A DNA stretch of 64,000 nucleotides, from positions 372,001 through 436,000 of the forward strand of contig NZ_LT821227.1 of assembly GCF_900169485.1 (NCBI RefSeq), in the 5' to 3' direction. This document shows positions 10,631-21,253 of the stretch, one piece after another. Under the pieces are notes generated by a model. That model did no database searches. It was not told where the DNA came from and saw nothing but the letters and a program-made list of their open reading frames with translations. Numbering within the stretch: position 1 is the first letter of the stretch; every line of letters begins with the position of its first letter. The position numbers and the translations under genes are program-made. Origin of the DNA: Phoenicibacter congonensis (lineage in GTDB: Bacteria; Actinomycetota; Coriobacteriia; Coriobacteriales; Eggerthellaceae).

Positions 10631-11881
10631 ATGTCAGTGAAATTCCAGTTTAAAAAGTCAACTATTGCTGCAATCTCAGCTGTTCTTTTGGCAGTTTGTG
10701 GATTTACGATTTATCTGCTTCATGAAATTTCGGAGCTTCCTTCATGGAACCTTGTTAGCATGAACACTGTTGGGCAAATTGAAACCGATGGCACCCTCAG
10801 GGTCGTCGATCAAAGAACAATTGACGCCCCGGCCAACACAGGCACTTTAAACTGGGAGATTTCTGAGGCTTGCAATCGTGCCAAAATCGCAATTGATGGT
10901 GTACGTGTAATTTACGCAGGAGCTGCGGAGGGCACAAGCGTTTTTCAAGCAGCGCAGGTCGATTTTTCTGAAGAGGTAAAAAAACGTCTTGATGATGGGC
11001 AACCGCCATCAGATGAAGAAGATTATTTTTGGTGTTACGACAAAGAGTCAAGTTGGTTTTATCTTTCTATGCCAAAAAACAACTCATCTCGCGAGATGAC
11101 AGTGGAAGTGAGCTATAAAATCGACAATGCTTTTTATGTTTATGATGATGTAGCTGAGCTCTATTGGAATTATTTGCCTCACATGAAGCTTTCTGATGTC
11201 CAACGTTTCGCTTCTCGAGATTCTTCTGCGCAGGTTACAGCAACTGTTTTAATTCCTGTTACTGACAAAAACACTCCGAAAGACCTTAACAACGTTTGGG
11301 CGTGGGGACATGGCCATGAAGGGACTGTCGAGTTTTTGCCCGTTGGTGGCTATCTTTTTTCTAGCACTGTAAACACGCACAACATTGATTCACAGGCTCA
11401 TGTTATTTTTCCTTCTTCGTGGCTTGAAAACTTAGACAAGACAGCACCCATAAACGTGGGAGGTGCGCGTCTTGGCAATTCTCTTTCTGAAGAAGCAAAA
11501 TGGATGGACTCATCGACTATTGCTCAAGGTAATGATTGTCTCTTGACCTTCGCATGGTGTCTAGTTGCAGCAATCATTCTTGTTATCGCAACTTGTGTTT
11601 ACTATGCTTTTTGCAAGAAATACAAAGCGCTATTAAGCAATTCTGAAGATTTCGACGAACACGCTCTGTTAAATTCGCAAATTACTTTTGACGCTCACGC
11701 TATCAAGTTTAAGAAAGTTTTGATAATAACATCGCTTTTTTGCTTGATAGCCTGCATTTTCGCAGTAGTCATTTTTCACTCACTAATCGTTGCGATTTGT
11801 TTTGCAGTTTTAGTCGCCTTACTCGTGATTTTTATGAATTGGACGCCCACTATTCACTCTTGTTTTCTTGATAGAATCTAG
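10631..11881 (+). CDS. DUF2207-like membrane protein
   Basis: A 416-residue protein with an N-terminal membrane helix (about residues 12-30), then a 270-residue extracellular beta-rich domain, and three hydrophobic helices near the C terminus (about 305-330, 364-385 and 390-405). The ectodomain, with a repeated two-lobe layout and segments such as YKIDNAFYVYDDVAELYWN, resembles DUF2207 membrane proteins. It is shorter than typical members and lacks their Gly-rich tail. The next gene starts 31 bp on, so they may be cotranscribed. Function is unknown. Confidence 0.65.
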   Translation: MSVKFQFKKSTIAAISAVLLAVCGFTIYLLHEISELPSWNLVSMNTVGQIETDGTLRVVDQRTIDAPANTGTLNWEISEACNRAKIAIDGVRVIYAGAAEGTSVFQAAQVDFSEEVKKRLDDGQPPSDEEDYFWCYDKESSWFYLSMPKNNSSREMTVEVSYKIDNAFYVYDDVAELYWNYLPHMKLSDVQRFASRDSSAQVTATVLIPVTDKNTPKDLNNVWAWGHGHEGTVEFLPVGGYLFSSTVNTHNIDSQAHVIFPSSWLENLDKTAPINVGGARLGNSLSEEAKWMDSSTIAQGNDCLLTFAWCLVAAIILVIATCVYYAFCKKYKALLSNSEDFDEHALLNSQITFDAHAIKFKKVLIITSLFCLIACIFAVVIFHSLIVAICFAVLVALLVIFMNWTPTIHSCFLDRI

Positions 11882-11912
11882 GCATAGTAGTTTTAGTAGG
11901 AAGGTTGTTTTA

Positions 11913-13241
11913 ATGAAAGATCAAAACGACAATAGTAGCGGATGGTCTCCTGCCGAAGAAAATGGTGAGAGCTGTTCATGTAGATGCCACAGCGAAGAAA
12001 CAGAATCCAGAAGTGGAGAAACTTGTTCCTGTGGATGCCATGATGCTAAAAATGATGGGAACCCCGATGACTCATGTTCTTGCGGATGTCACAGTTCAGA
12101 TAGCGACGGAAATGGCGAGAGAAAATGCTCTTGTGGCTGCCACGATTCGGAAGGCGGCAGTGCCGAAGCCTGCTCTTGTGGTTGCCATAATAATGAGAAG
12201 GCAGAAACAGAGCCTTGCTCCTTCTGTGGCGAAGAACATGCCGAGCAAGCAGAAATTTCCCAACATGATGATTGCCTTCAGCAACAACAGCATCCTCAAC
12301 TAGCAGAACAACCTCAAGAGGATCAACAACCTCTGCAATCACAAGCTACACAGCAAGTGACATCAACGTTTGTTCCTGTTGCTGCAACTGCATCTTCAGC
12401 ATCAACTGGTCAAATCGTTTATGAAAAGGGTTGCGTTTTAGCAGCGTGGGACGACGTTAAGGCGACAAAAGGCTGGTTTGGAAAAGTTTGTCTCATGGCT
12501 TTGATGTATTTTGTCCCTGTCTTAAATTGGGTGGTTGACGGCTATGCTCTTCGTTGGGCAAGACAGCTTTCGTTAGGTCAAGTTGAGGGTCTGCCTAAGA
12601 AAATCTTTTGCGACCGCGCTTTTGTTAATGGCGCCATGAAATTCCTGGTTTCATTGGTAGCTGCTATTGCTGTTTCTATTGTTTCTTCAATTTTAGGATT
12701 GGTCCCTTTTGTTGGAGCACTTGCAGCAATTGCATTTGGAATTTTTGTTGACATGTTCATGAACATTGCCTATGTTCGCATGTCTTTGTTTGATGAACTT
12801 GGTGAAGGCTTTAACATAAAGGAAGCCTTTAATTCCATGAAAAAAGAACCAGGCAAAGCTTTCATGATTGAATTCATGCCTTCGCTCATTATCTTTTTGA
12901 CAGTTTCTGCGGTTGTGTTCATTGTCACGATTCTTTGTATTCTGACTACTGGACTTGCGGTTTGGTCGGCTGTCTACCCAATGATAGAGGCAGCAGGATC
13001 ATATGAATATTTCACATATCTTCTTGAAAATGACCCCGAGTTTTTATCGCAGTTTATAACGATTCTTTTATCTGGGTTTATTGGACTCATTCCATGGATT
13101 CTCATAGGTGGATTCTTCGCAAACATCTTTGTTGTAACTTGCCTTTTGGTTCAAACACGCGCAGCCGGTCACTATGTTGCACGATATTGTGCAGAGTGGA
13201 GAGAAGAGCCAAAATTTCGCGCAGTTATCTATAATGAATAG
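11913..13241 (+). CDS. Cys/His-repeat protein with C-terminal membrane domain
   Basis: A 442-residue protein of two parts. Residues 21-109 hold five near-identical CSCGCH motifs (C21, C38, C55, C72, C87; the first is CSCRCH), spaced 17, 17, 17 and 15 residues apart by acidic Ser/Asp/Glu linkers. A variant, CSFC with a later His, follows at 102-109. After a Gln-rich linker (about 120-160) comes a membrane domain of about 270 residues with six or so helices, resembling DUF4013 proteins. The repeats look like metal-binding sites. They are not haem c sites, since no CxxCH fits. ATG at 11913 is preferred because AGGAAGG lies seven bases upstream. Function is unknown. Confidence 0.8.
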   Translation: MKDQNDNSSGWSPAEENGESCSCRCHSEETESRSGETCSCGCHDAKNDGNPDDSCSCGCHSSDSDGNGERKCSCGCHDSEGGSAEACSCGCHNNEKAETEPCSFCGEEHAEQAEISQHDDCLQQQQHPQLAEQPQEDQQPLQSQATQQVTSTFVPVAATASSASTGQIVYEKGCVLAAWDDVKATKGWFGKVCLMALMYFVPVLNWVVDGYALRWARQLSLGQVEGLPKKIFCDRAFVNGAMKFLVSLVAAIAVSIVSSILGLVPFVGALAAIAFGIFVDMFMNIAYVRMSLFDELGEGFNIKEAFNSMKKEPGKAFMIEFMPSLIIFLTVSAVVFIVTILCILTTGLAVWSAVYPMIEAAGSYEYFTYLLENDPEFLSQFITILLSGFIGLIPWILIGGFFANIFVVTCLLVQTRAAGHYVARYCAEWREEPKFRAVIYNE

Positions 13242-16315: not shown

Positions 16316-19054
16316 ATGAAAAACGTTTTCATAATAATCAAGCGAGATTTGATGCGTCTATTAAAAGCACCGCTGGCGCTTGTAGTGGTCGCGGCATTGA
16401 TAGTCCTTCCTTCTCTTTACACTTGGGTTAATGTTTATGGGTTTTGGAATCCATATGACAACACCAGAAATTTGCGAGTTTGTTTTGTAAACGAAGATGA
16501 AGGTGGCATAAGTGATCTCACTGGAGAGATTAACGTTGGAAAAATGATTGATGAGTCTCTCCATGATGACAATCAGCTGGGATGGGCTTTTGTTAGCCGA
16601 GAAGAGGCTATGGAAGAAATTAGGAGTGGCAAGGCCTATGCCGCTTTTGTTGTCCCGAATCATTTCACAAAAAATCTTCTGTCGCTCTTCTCTTCTGATT
16701 TTACGAAGCCGAATGTTCAGTATTATGTAAATGAAAAGTTGGGACCAATTTCTCCCAAAGTAACCGACACAGGTTCTACAAAGCTTGATGAAACAATCAA
16801 TTCGATGTTCGTGAAGACAGTCAGTGAGACTGTTGTTGAGAAATTAAATGGTGCATTTGCTGATGCTAATGAGGCATTAGAGAACAAAGATTCTGAAATT
16901 GTAAAAAAAATAGAGGCTGCAAGAAATGCAGTTTCTAATGCAGAGAGTTCTCTTGTTGAGCTAGAAACTTCAATTGACAATGCTCAAATGAAAGTATCAA
17001 GCACTAAGAATGATTTGAATGAGGTTAAGCGGGGAATTGATGAGGTTGAGTCGGGTCTTTCGAAAGTTCAACAGAGCTCTAAAGATGTCTCTGATTCGCT
17101 CGACTCATTCACAGAAGAAGCGTTTCCTGCCATTAACACTGGCCTCACTGATTTGTCTAATGCCTCGAGCAAAACAAACGAAGCAATCACTAATCTTTCT
17201 TCCGACATTCAAAGCTCACAAGTGAGTGTAAAAACCTCGTTAGAGCAACAAAAAGTTCAAATATCTCAAATCCAGACACTAATTACTCAGTTGCAAAATA
17301 CGGCAAAACTCTTGCCAGAAGGAGATGAAAAAGATGCTGTTTTGTCGTGCATAGAAGCGCTCAAATCTAAAGCTGATGATTCACAAGCTACTGTTGACGA
17401 GCTTTCGCAATTGTCTGATGACATTTCAGCAGATGCGAAAAACATATCCGATGCCTCTATCCAAGTAAATCAGATGACGCAAGACACCGTTAAATCCACC
17501 CTCTCATTTAATTCGACTCTGTTGACGACAACGTTACCCGCGCTAACCAAAACCCTGACTGACATCTCGACATTGTCAGGCAAATTGTCTTCTTCTGTTG
17601 GAAATCAGCGTTCGCTAGTGTCTCAGATTGAGGCTGTCCTTGATCAAGTCAAAAACAGTTTTGATTCGGCCAAGAAGGCAGTGGGGGCGACGAGGAGCAG
17701 TTTTGACATTTTTGATAATCAGCTTTCAACAGTACAAACTGATGTGAGTTCGTTCTCTATGGGAGCTATGTTGAAAAAGTTGACAGGCGTTGATGGCCTT
17801 GATGGTTCTGCGATAGGTGAATTTATCAGCTCACCGACAGTTATTGAACAGAAAAGCATTTATGAATTGAATGCATATGGGTCTGCCATGGCTCCATTGT
17901 TTATGAATTTGACATTTTGGATTGGCGGCTTCATGCTCCTAGTAATCTTAAGGCAGGAAGTTGACGATGAAGGTGTTGAAAATTTAACGATTAAACAGCG
18001 CTATATTTCGAGATGGCTCCTTCTGTGCTTCTTTGCGATTTTACAAGCAGTCGTTTGCGTTTCTGGCGTTCTTCTGTTGGGAGTTCAAACTACAAGCGCA
18101 TTCCTTTTTTATCTCATGGGTTGTTTTGCTTCAGTAGCCTATCTAAGCCTCATGTTTATGCTTTCAACGACTTTGCAACACATTGGCAAAGGGCTTTGCG
18201 TTTTGCTTGCATTCTTGCAAATTCCAGGAGCAACGGGTCTTTATCCAATAGAAATGACAACTCCTTTTTTTCAAGGGATTTATCCTTTCTTCCCATTCAC
18301 ATATGGAATTAATGGGTTGCGAGAGACAATCTGCGGGCTTTATGGGAACACATATGCAATCTGTGCTGTTGTCCTTTTAGCAATTATGGCGATTAGTGTT
18401 TTAATTGGTCTTTATTTGCGTCCCTATTTAACGAATTTCAACAAATTGTTCGCCAAGGAAGTTCAAGAAGGAGGGCTCTTTGTTGGTGAAGAAATTGAAA
18501 TTCCAACGCAACGTTTCAGGCTTTCGCAGCTAATTGGCTATCTCTCTAATCGAGAAGAATATAGAACGGGGCTCATGAACCGTGCTAGAAAATTTGTGAA
18601 TCGTTATTCTTCGTTTAAAAAATATGTTCTTGCAATTGGGGTTATTGCTTCAATCGCCATTGCTGTTCTTTTTTCAAGACTTCCGATGGAATCGAAGCCA
18701 ACAGTTTTAACTATTTGGCTGGTTTGTCTTGTAGTGCTAATGATAGTTGCAGTGGGCGTTGAGCATGCTCATGACTCAATAGAGCGCCAGTTGAATCTCG
18801 ATGGAATGAGTGATGAGGAGCTTCGTGGTTTGATTGGCGAACGCAATAAGGTTGGTAAGACCACATCCGAAATTTTTTCTGGTCAAAAATCTGGCGAGGG
18901 TCACAAGTTATTTAAAGATTTAAATGACAAGCATCAGAGAGATTTAGAAGCACAAAAGACCATTGGGAATGTGAGTACAGTAAAAAATGGCAGGCATTGG
19001 TCTCCTGGATCCAAACCCAATGATGACAATGAAAAGAAGAGTAATCAAAACTAA
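16316..19054 (+). CDS. YhgE/Pip family membrane protein (long form)
   Basis: A 912-residue protein. An N-terminal helix (residues 19-36) is followed by the YhgE/Pip signature FWNPYDNTRNLRVCFVNEDEGG. A long coiled-coil-rich extracellular region (about 190-500), rich in Ser, Asp and Gln heptads, comes next. Five or six C-terminal helices (about 535-700) resemble ABC-2 type permeases. An extra helix pair and a charged tail follow, longer than usual. Members include the phage infection protein Pip and proteins linked to type VII secretion. It pairs with the shorter paralogue directly downstream. No good RBS is visible. Confidence 0.85.
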   Translation: MKNVFIIIKRDLMRLLKAPLALVVVAALIVLPSLYTWVNVYGFWNPYDNTRNLRVCFVNEDEGGISDLTGEINVGKMIDESLHDDNQLGWAFVSREEAMEEIRSGKAYAAFVVPNHFTKNLLSLFSSDFTKPNVQYYVNEKLGPISPKVTDTGSTKLDETINSMFVKTVSETVVEKLNGAFADANEALENKDSEIVKKIEAARNAVSNAESSLVELETSIDNAQMKVSSTKNDLNEVKRGIDEVESGLSKVQQSSKDVSDSLDSFTEEAFPAINTGLTDLSNASSKTNEAITNLSSDIQSSQVSVKTSLEQQKVQISQIQTLITQLQNTAKLLPEGDEKDAVLSCIEALKSKADDSQATVDELSQLSDDISADAKNISDASIQVNQMTQDTVKSTLSFNSTLLTTTLPALTKTLTDISTLSGKLSSSVGNQRSLVSQIEAVLDQVKNSFDSAKKAVGATRSSFDIFDNQLSTVQTDVSSFSMGAMLKKLTGVDGLDGSAIGEFISSPTVIEQKSIYELNAYGSAMAPLFMNLTFWIGGFMLLVILRQEVDDEGVENLTIKQRYISRWLLLCFFAILQAVVCVSGVLLLGVQTTSAFLFYLMGCFASVAYLSLMFMLSTTLQHIGKGLCVLLAFLQIPGATGLYPIEMTTPFFQGIYPFFPFTYGINGLRETICGLYGNTYAICAVVLLAIMAISVLIGLYLRPYLTNFNKLFAKEVQEGGLFVGEEIEIPTQRFRLSQLIGYLSNREEYRTGLMNRARKFVNRYSSFKKYVLAIGVIASIAIAVLFSRLPMESKPTVLTIWLVCLVVLMIVAVGVEHAHDSIERQLNLDGMSDEELRGLIGERNKVGKTTSEIFSGQKSGEGHKLFKDLNDKHQRDLEAQKTIGNVSTVKNGRHWSPGSKPNDDNEKKSNQN

Positions 19055-19066
19055 ACCTAGACTTTA

Positions 19067-21253
19067 ATGCGCAACATTTGGAAAATATTCAAATCTGATT
19101 TAAAGGCGTTAAACCAAAACGTCATCAGTGTCATTTTGACTGTGGGTCTTGTGATTATGCCTTCTATGTTCGTTTGGTATAACGTTTTGGCTTGCTGGGA
19201 TGTTTTTGGTCACACTGGTAATCTAAAGGTTGCAGTTGCGAACACCGATGAAGGATACAAAAGTGATTTGTTGCCAATTGAAGTGAACGTTGGAAATGAA
19301 GTCGTTAATGCTCTGCGCGGAAACGATCAAATGAAGTGGGTTTTTACAAGTGAAGAGAATGCAATCGATGGCGCTGCGGGTGGACGTTACTATGCTGCTC
19401 TAGTTATTCCAAAATCATTTAGTCAAGAAATGTTAACTTTTTACTCAAGCGATGCTGAGCGTGCTCCGATTCTTTACTATTCAAACGAGAAAAAAAGTGC
19501 TGTAGCACCCAAAGTTACCTCTCAAGGTGCTGACGAAATTTCATATCAAGTAAATAAAGTCTTCGCTAGCACTTTAAGTGAAGTGACAATTAATCTTCTC
19601 AACTCTGCGATAGATCTCACCGATGATGAGACGACAGCCGATAATATGTCAAAGCTTCTAACGAGAATTTCTGACGCGTCAGACAGCATGAAACAGCAAG
19701 CTACGTTACTTTCAAGTTTTATCGATTTGGTTAGTGCTTCGCAAGATTTAGTTCGTAGTTCTAAAACGCTTTTAGACGAAACTAAAGATTCTGTAAAAGA
19801 ACTTAACTCCGATTTTGATGGGAGTGATGAAACAATTTACACGCTTGCCTCAGCTTTAGAAACCACTACAGATTCGCTCACCCAATCAATCAATTCGATC
19901 ATTTCTAACTACCAAAACACTGCCGATTCAATCGATTCAGCTTTTGATAGCGGAAACTCTACAGCAGAGGACGTTGCAAAAAGCTTGACATCAAAAGCCG
20001 ACAGAATGGATAGTCTTGCAGATTCCTATGAGAAAGTCATTGATTCACTCCAAGCTATTAAAGACAAACTCCCCGCTGAGCAACAACCTGCTTTTGATCA
20101 GTTTGTTCAAGTTTTGCAAAGTAGCATCGATTTTCAAAGAACTGCTGCTGACACCATGCGATCTTCTGCCGAAGATGTTCGAAGTTCTAACTCAGCCGTG
20201 CAAGCGAAGCATGATGAAATTAAGTCGGTCGTAGACACAGCTGTTTCTTCACTAAGGGATGTTGAGACAACCTATAACTCAGACTTCAAGCCAAAACTAG
20301 AAGAGGTTACTTCCAGCGTAGCCGCGGTTTCTTCAAAGTTGCAAACGAATTATGAGAAGTTAAACAACATGGAAGATGCGCTTTCGAGTTCAATGACAGA
20401 TGCTGGTTCAAAACTTGTGAGTGCTAAAACAGCAGTCGAAAGTGCTGCGAGCGGGTTAAATGAAGCATCTGACAAGTTGACTTCAATGCACGATAAATTA
20501 GTGAGTGCAATGGAATCTGGCGGGATTCAGGAAGTAAAAGAGATTATTGGCAACAATCCAAGTCTTTTAGCGGAAAACATCTCGGCACCAGTTGGGATTG
20601 AGCGCGTTGCTGAATTCCCAGTTTCAAGCTTCGGGGCAGCAATGTCTCCACTTTATGCAACACTTGGCCTTTGGGTTGGATGTCTTCTTTCTGTCGTGCT
20701 AATCAAGGTTAATCCTTCTGCACAAACGATTAGTTCATGCAAGTGCAAGCCACGTTTATGTGAAATGTTCCTTGGACGCTTTGGAGTGTTTGCTGTGGTT
20801 GCACTTCTTCAGTCGACAGTGATTTCTCTTGGCAATTTGTTTTTTCTTGGCATTCAAGTTTCCAATCCATTTCTCTATGTCTTGTGTTTTTGGGTCGCGG
20901 GGCTAGTGTTTCAGTTCATTATGTACACGCTCGTTGCTACGTTTGGAAACGTTGGCAAAGCAATTGCAGTTTTGTTGTTGATTTTCCAAGTCACAGGAGC
21001 GGGCGGGTCATTCCCATTACAGCTGTTGCCTGAATATGCAACTGCCATTAATCCGTTCTTGCCAGCTTCATATGTCGTTAATGCTATGCGCGCCTCGATG
21101 ACTGGTCTATATCAATTTGATTATTGGATTTATCTTGGCAAGTTGCTTTTGTTCTTATTGCCAATGGCGTTAATCGGGCTTGTCTTTCGACGTCCATTCG
21201 TCAAAGCTAACGATAAATTCGTTGAATTGGTTGAAAAGTCAAAGCTAATTTAA
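19067..21253 (+). CDS. YhgE/Pip family membrane protein (short form)
   Basis: A 728-residue paralogue of the preceding gene, 12 bp downstream. It has the same architecture: an N-terminal helix, CWDVFGHTGNLKVAVANTDEGY, a coiled-coil region (about 180-500) and six C-terminal helices. It lacks the C-terminal extension of its neighbour. The pair may form a heteromeric envelope complex. No clear RBS precedes the ATG, so translational coupling is likely. The substrate or partner is not indicated. Confidence 0.85.
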   Translation: MRNIWKIFKSDLKALNQNVISVILTVGLVIMPSMFVWYNVLACWDVFGHTGNLKVAVANTDEGYKSDLLPIEVNVGNEVVNALRGNDQMKWVFTSEENAIDGAAGGRYYAALVIPKSFSQEMLTFYSSDAERAPILYYSNEKKSAVAPKVTSQGADEISYQVNKVFASTLSEVTINLLNSAIDLTDDETTADNMSKLLTRISDASDSMKQQATLLSSFIDLVSASQDLVRSSKTLLDETKDSVKELNSDFDGSDETIYTLASALETTTDSLTQSINSIISNYQNTADSIDSAFDSGNSTAEDVAKSLTSKADRMDSLADSYEKVIDSLQAIKDKLPAEQQPAFDQFVQVLQSSIDFQRTAADTMRSSAEDVRSSNSAVQAKHDEIKSVVDTAVSSLRDVETTYNSDFKPKLEEVTSSVAAVSSKLQTNYEKLNNMEDALSSSMTDAGSKLVSAKTAVESAASGLNEASDKLTSMHDKLVSAMESGGIQEVKEIIGNNPSLLAENISAPVGIERVAEFPVSSFGAAMSPLYATLGLWVGCLLSVVLIKVNPSAQTISSCKCKPRLCEMFLGRFGVFAVVALLQSTVISLGNLFFLGIQVSNPFLYVLCFWVAGLVFQFIMYTLVATFGNVGKAIAVLLLIFQVTGAGGSFPLQLLPEYATAINPFLPASYVVNAMRASMTGLYQFDYWIYLGKLLLFLLPMALIGLVFRRPFVKANDKFVELVEKSKLI

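Follow-up and report, generated by a model that had tools for sequence, protein, structure and literature searches.

The N-terminal part of a 442-aa membrane protein of Phoenicibacter congonensis carries five CxCxCH units, which are old and are kept by purifying selection on their Cys and His residues. This array is undescribed in the libraries we searched and is lineage-specific as far as the searches extended. We lean towards the view that it forms a tail that is acidic and disordered, binds soft metals and probably lies in the cytosol. In place of the zinc ribbon of related proteins, this tail, tethered to the membrane, would buffer or sense metal and alter the DUF4013 domain to which it is joined.

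The array, its statistics and its age

The gene lies in a 64-kb stretch of the genome, the whole of which is referred to here as the window. The features discussed below are the following, all on the forward (+) strand.

10631..11881, +, DUF2207-type membrane protein gene, ending 31 nt upstream of the array gene (PF09972, E 4.4e-11)
11898..11904, +, AGGAAGG, likely ribosome-binding site (good Shine-Dalgarno sequence), 8 nt 5' of the ATG (sequence)
11913..13241, +, ORF of 442 aa: CxCxCH array, Gln-rich linker, DUF4013 membrane domain (ORF, Pfam match, homologues)
11973..11990, +, unit 1, CSCRCH, aa 21-26 (sequence pattern)
12024..12041, +, unit 2, CSCGCH, aa 38-43 (sequence pattern)
12075..12092, +, unit 3, CSCGCH, aa 55-60 (sequence pattern)
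12126..12143, +, unit 4, CSCGCH, aa 72-77 (sequence pattern)
12171..12188, +, unit 5, CSCGCH, aa 87-92 (sequence pattern)
12216..12239, +, degenerate sixth unit, CSFCGEEH, aa 102-109 (sequence)
12279..12356, +, Gln-rich linker, aa 123-148 (sequence)
12408..13238, +, conserved membrane domain, aa 166-442 (Pfam match and homologue alignment)

The earlier note on this DNA described five CSCGCH repeats with a regular period of 17 residues. The five units are indeed present, at C21, C38, C55, C72 and C87, but the first reads CSCRCH, and the spacing is 17, 17, 17 and then 15 residues. Residues 1-106 include 17 cysteines, mostly CxC-spaced, and the net charge of residues 1-120 is -21. At the nucleotide level, the CxCxCH pattern has 5 matches in the window, all within this ORF, compared to 0.22 expected and to no more than 2 in any of 100 shuffles. 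When residues 1-120 were shuffled 20,000 times, not a single shuffle contained at least three CxCxCH motifs, so that a Cys-rich composition by itself does not account for the array. Among the remaining pattern matches of the genome, the four that were inspected in frame fall within open frames of just 18-78 codons.

The remainder of the layout given in the note, a Gln-rich linker leading to a DUF4013-like membrane domain, holds as well. In the Pfam scan, DUF4013 (PF13197) matched residues 195-343 with 39.2 bits (E 8.2e-10; gathering cut-off, 26.9 bits) and was the sole model above the cut-off for the entire protein, and each of the 19 sequences in the homologue alignment (19/19) matches the same model. 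A PDB profile search with the membrane domain yielded no match, one DUF4013 homologue matched Yip1 weakly (E 4.5e-4), a single-sequence structure model was of too low quality (pLDDT 59) to serve in a fold search, and the literature searched contained no paper explaining DUF4013 proteins. The suggestion that no described family has the layout of the array also stands: searches of Pfam, NCBIfam and PDB sequences with the Cys-rich N-terminal region gave no match up to an E value of 10, nor did any model of the curated metallothionein or metallochaperone families match over this region in these searches, and we found no mention of CSCGCH or CXCXCH in the literature searched.

The codon comparison, made between the units within one gene of one strain, is the strongest evidence that the array has a function. 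Over all pairs of the five units, codon positions 1 and 2 differ at 4 of the 120 compared sites, and third positions at 34 of the 60 (0.567), compared to 0.584 (sd 0.061) expected for random synonymous codons of CSCGCH. The spacers resemble each other little, with the observed alignment score reached by 3.2% of shuffles. Given that the silent sites are saturated, the Cys and His residues are constant and the spacers have diverged, the units are not recent copies, and the recent internal duplication suggested in the note is not supported.

The same comparison bears on two alternative explanations. The array could be a neutral elaboration of a disordered linker, without a specific role, and its absence from all other homologues read, the sister species included, counts in favor of this; however, the motif residues have been kept against saturated synonymous change while the spacers diverged, so that we regard neutrality as highly improbable. 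Alternatively, the N-terminus might be a thiol redox tail whose reversible disulfides inform the membrane domain of redox or oxygen stress, in which case metal binding would be secondary. CxC dithiols can be redox active, and the abundance of CxC-spaced cysteines fits such a role, but a His follows the third Cys in all five units despite the saturation of synonymous sites, and a purely redox function would need none. A redox tail thus appears decidedly unlikely.

Homologues of the membrane domain

DUF4013 homologues were found by protein search in 117 of the 138 genomes of the family. Among the 68 distinct homologue N-termini that were read, 24 carry a four-cysteine (C-x2-C...C-x2-C) zinc ribbon, defined here as an N-terminal CxxC-x(8-16)-CxxC; a metal-binding N-terminus is therefore common in the DUF4013 family. 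In these proteins, the ribbon is followed by a low-complexity linker and then by the same DUF4013 membrane domain, that is, the order of the parts is the same as in the array protein, to which the closest of them are 36-40% identical. They have one CxxC...CxxC ribbon, however, whereas the array protein, which lacks a ribbon under this definition, has five CxCxCH units that are so far seen in this species only. Another 42 of the 68 N-termini have few cysteines and no ribbon, many of them with almost no N-terminal extension. The 2 N-termini that contain at least three cysteines but no ribbon are the array protein itself and L021, for which the start codon looks misassigned by the automated choice. 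Across the 68 N-termini, no CxC motif was found besides those of the array protein.

The note had named absence of the repeats from homologues as a ground for refuting its reading, and the repeats are indeed absent from all the others among the 68 N-termini. In view of the purifying selection on the motif, their absence does not disprove metal binding; rather, it makes the array an apparent lineage-specific addition and not a feature that defines DUF4013 proteins. As the array is missing from every other homologue read, its gain in Phoenicibacter congonensis would be simpler than its loss in the relatives. The protein of the sister species (L002) is alignable from about residue 3 (EENNEKTGWTPAEDSQE vs DQNDNSSGWSPAEENGE) and has an acidic, Cys-free linker in place of the array, although its contig ends at the start of the alignment, and a further upstream extension is possible there.

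These relatives also bear on passive detoxification or storage, under which the array would sequester excess soft metal in a metallothionein-like manner, with the membrane domain as a mere anchor. The region is Cys-dense and acidic, and repeated units raise capacity. Nevertheless, the conserved membrane domain to which the array is attached has relatives that usually bear one zinc ribbon or none, and this suggests regulation more than bulk storage, which we consider unlikely.

Similar motifs in other proteins

Pairs of CxCxCH units separated by a 12-42 nt gap were sought in 138 genomes of the family and 396 of the class, and a stricter CxCGCH pair was sought in 396 genomes of the phylum, the three samples being overlapping. 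No other credible array was detected in these genomes; the few matches looked, on reading their DNA by eye, like chance or simple-repeat cases, and in the class search, a reversed control pattern matched about equally often. No match to the array was found in the plasmid and phage records searched, where low-complexity filtering may conceal one. A scan of GTDB contigs for pairs with the first Cys-Ser coded by TGC TCN returned 23 stretches, of which all but one (22/23) were judged by eye, in frame, to be simple-repeat, short-frame or off-frame cases and were rejected.

The exception (L059, 3840-7109, reverse strand), from a Spirochaetales bacterium, is a YgfK-type gene (TIGR03315, 1385 bits) next to SsnA and YgeY, which encodes an acidic insert containing DECSCQCHDHEHDEDCSCGCHDHEEDEE. 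It has two CSC[GQ]CH units, 13 residues apart, with acidic spacers like those of the array, but they form an internal insert in an unrelated protein of the oxidoreductase type. Acidic inserts rich in CxC and HxH occur both in L059 and in related YgfK proteins (L137, L139, L141 and L143), CGCGHDHD/CTCEDGC variants are present at this place in YgfK proteins other than that of L059, and some YgfK proteins from the same search have no Cys/His insert. Judging from these sequences, the YgfK insert and the array are presumably a case of convergence on a motif and not of homology. That CSC[GQ]CH recurs in a spirochaete YgfK with no relation to the array protein hints at a predicted metal-binding motif that is small and reusable, and that escapes curated libraries owing to its location in low-complexity sequence.

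By analogy with characterized systems, metal binding by the CxCxCH units is plausible. In HypB of E. coli, Ni is bound with a sub-picomolar Kd by an N-terminal CXXCGC, which resembles the array in its position, its three closely spaced cysteines and its CGC core (PMC7055735); in contrast to the array, which is part of a membrane protein, HypB is a soluble GTPase with just one such site, to which the amine of the N-terminus also contributes. The tail of SlyD is unstructured and, like the array tail, has many Cys, His and acidic residues; it can bind as many as 7 Ni ions (PMC7055735). SlyD, however, is a soluble prolyl isomerase with a C-terminal tail and no regular array; it has no demonstrated sequence homology to the array protein, in which the Pfam scan identified no SlyD prolyl-isomerase domain, and any likeness would lie at most in how the tail works.

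Proposed role and genomic context

Under the metal-binding reading that we prefer, the tail, an acidic chain with five CxCxCH sites and a partial sixth, is probably disordered and would lie in the cytosol, a location suggested by the zinc ribbons of the relatives. With its three thiolates and one imidazole, each CxCxCH unit would chelate a single metal ion, soft or borderline in character. This metal would most likely be Zn(II), again because the relatives carry zinc ribbons, whereas Ni(II) or Cu(I) are possible. Tethered to the membrane, the tail could then buffer or sense metal and alter the DUF4013 domain, standing in functionally for the ribbon. More specifically, metal loading of the tail might gate the DUF4013 domain, with the ribbon and CxCxCH as sensors that can substitute for one another and are tuned to different metals or to different ranges of concentration, a version to which we assign little likelihood. 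Together, the array and the zinc ribbons of the relatives point to metal as a signal or ligand of the DUF4013 N-terminus.

Weighing against the preferred reading, no metal-transport or metal-enzyme genes adjoin the array gene. Downstream of it are MATE, MurJ and two genes that, from reading their sequences, we take to be of the YhgE type, and these are syntenic in the sister species. Given that the sister species keeps these neighbors without the array, the DUF4013 domain can do without it, a further point against this reading. The DUF2207-type gene upstream possibly has a functional link to the DUF4013 gene, the two being linked in two genera: this linkage recurs in three genomes of another genus (L064-L066), and in the two of these that were read, EamA-type and shikimate-kinase-type genes, named from their sequences, apparently lie in between.

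HypB (G000:C1:443841-444470) and HypA (G000:C1:679459-679797) are encoded in the genome. A nickel link through these proteins was considered and rejected: HypB is also present in the sister species, which has no array, and nickel-enzyme maturation therefore does not track the array. The two genes are about 235 kb apart and do not form a single hyp cluster. Positions 16316-21253 of the window encode two tandem large membrane proteins, of 912 and 728 aa, which are related to each other via their sister-species orthologues; the first of them, of 912 aa, has matches to ABC-2 type membrane models and seems to be YhgE/Pip-like.
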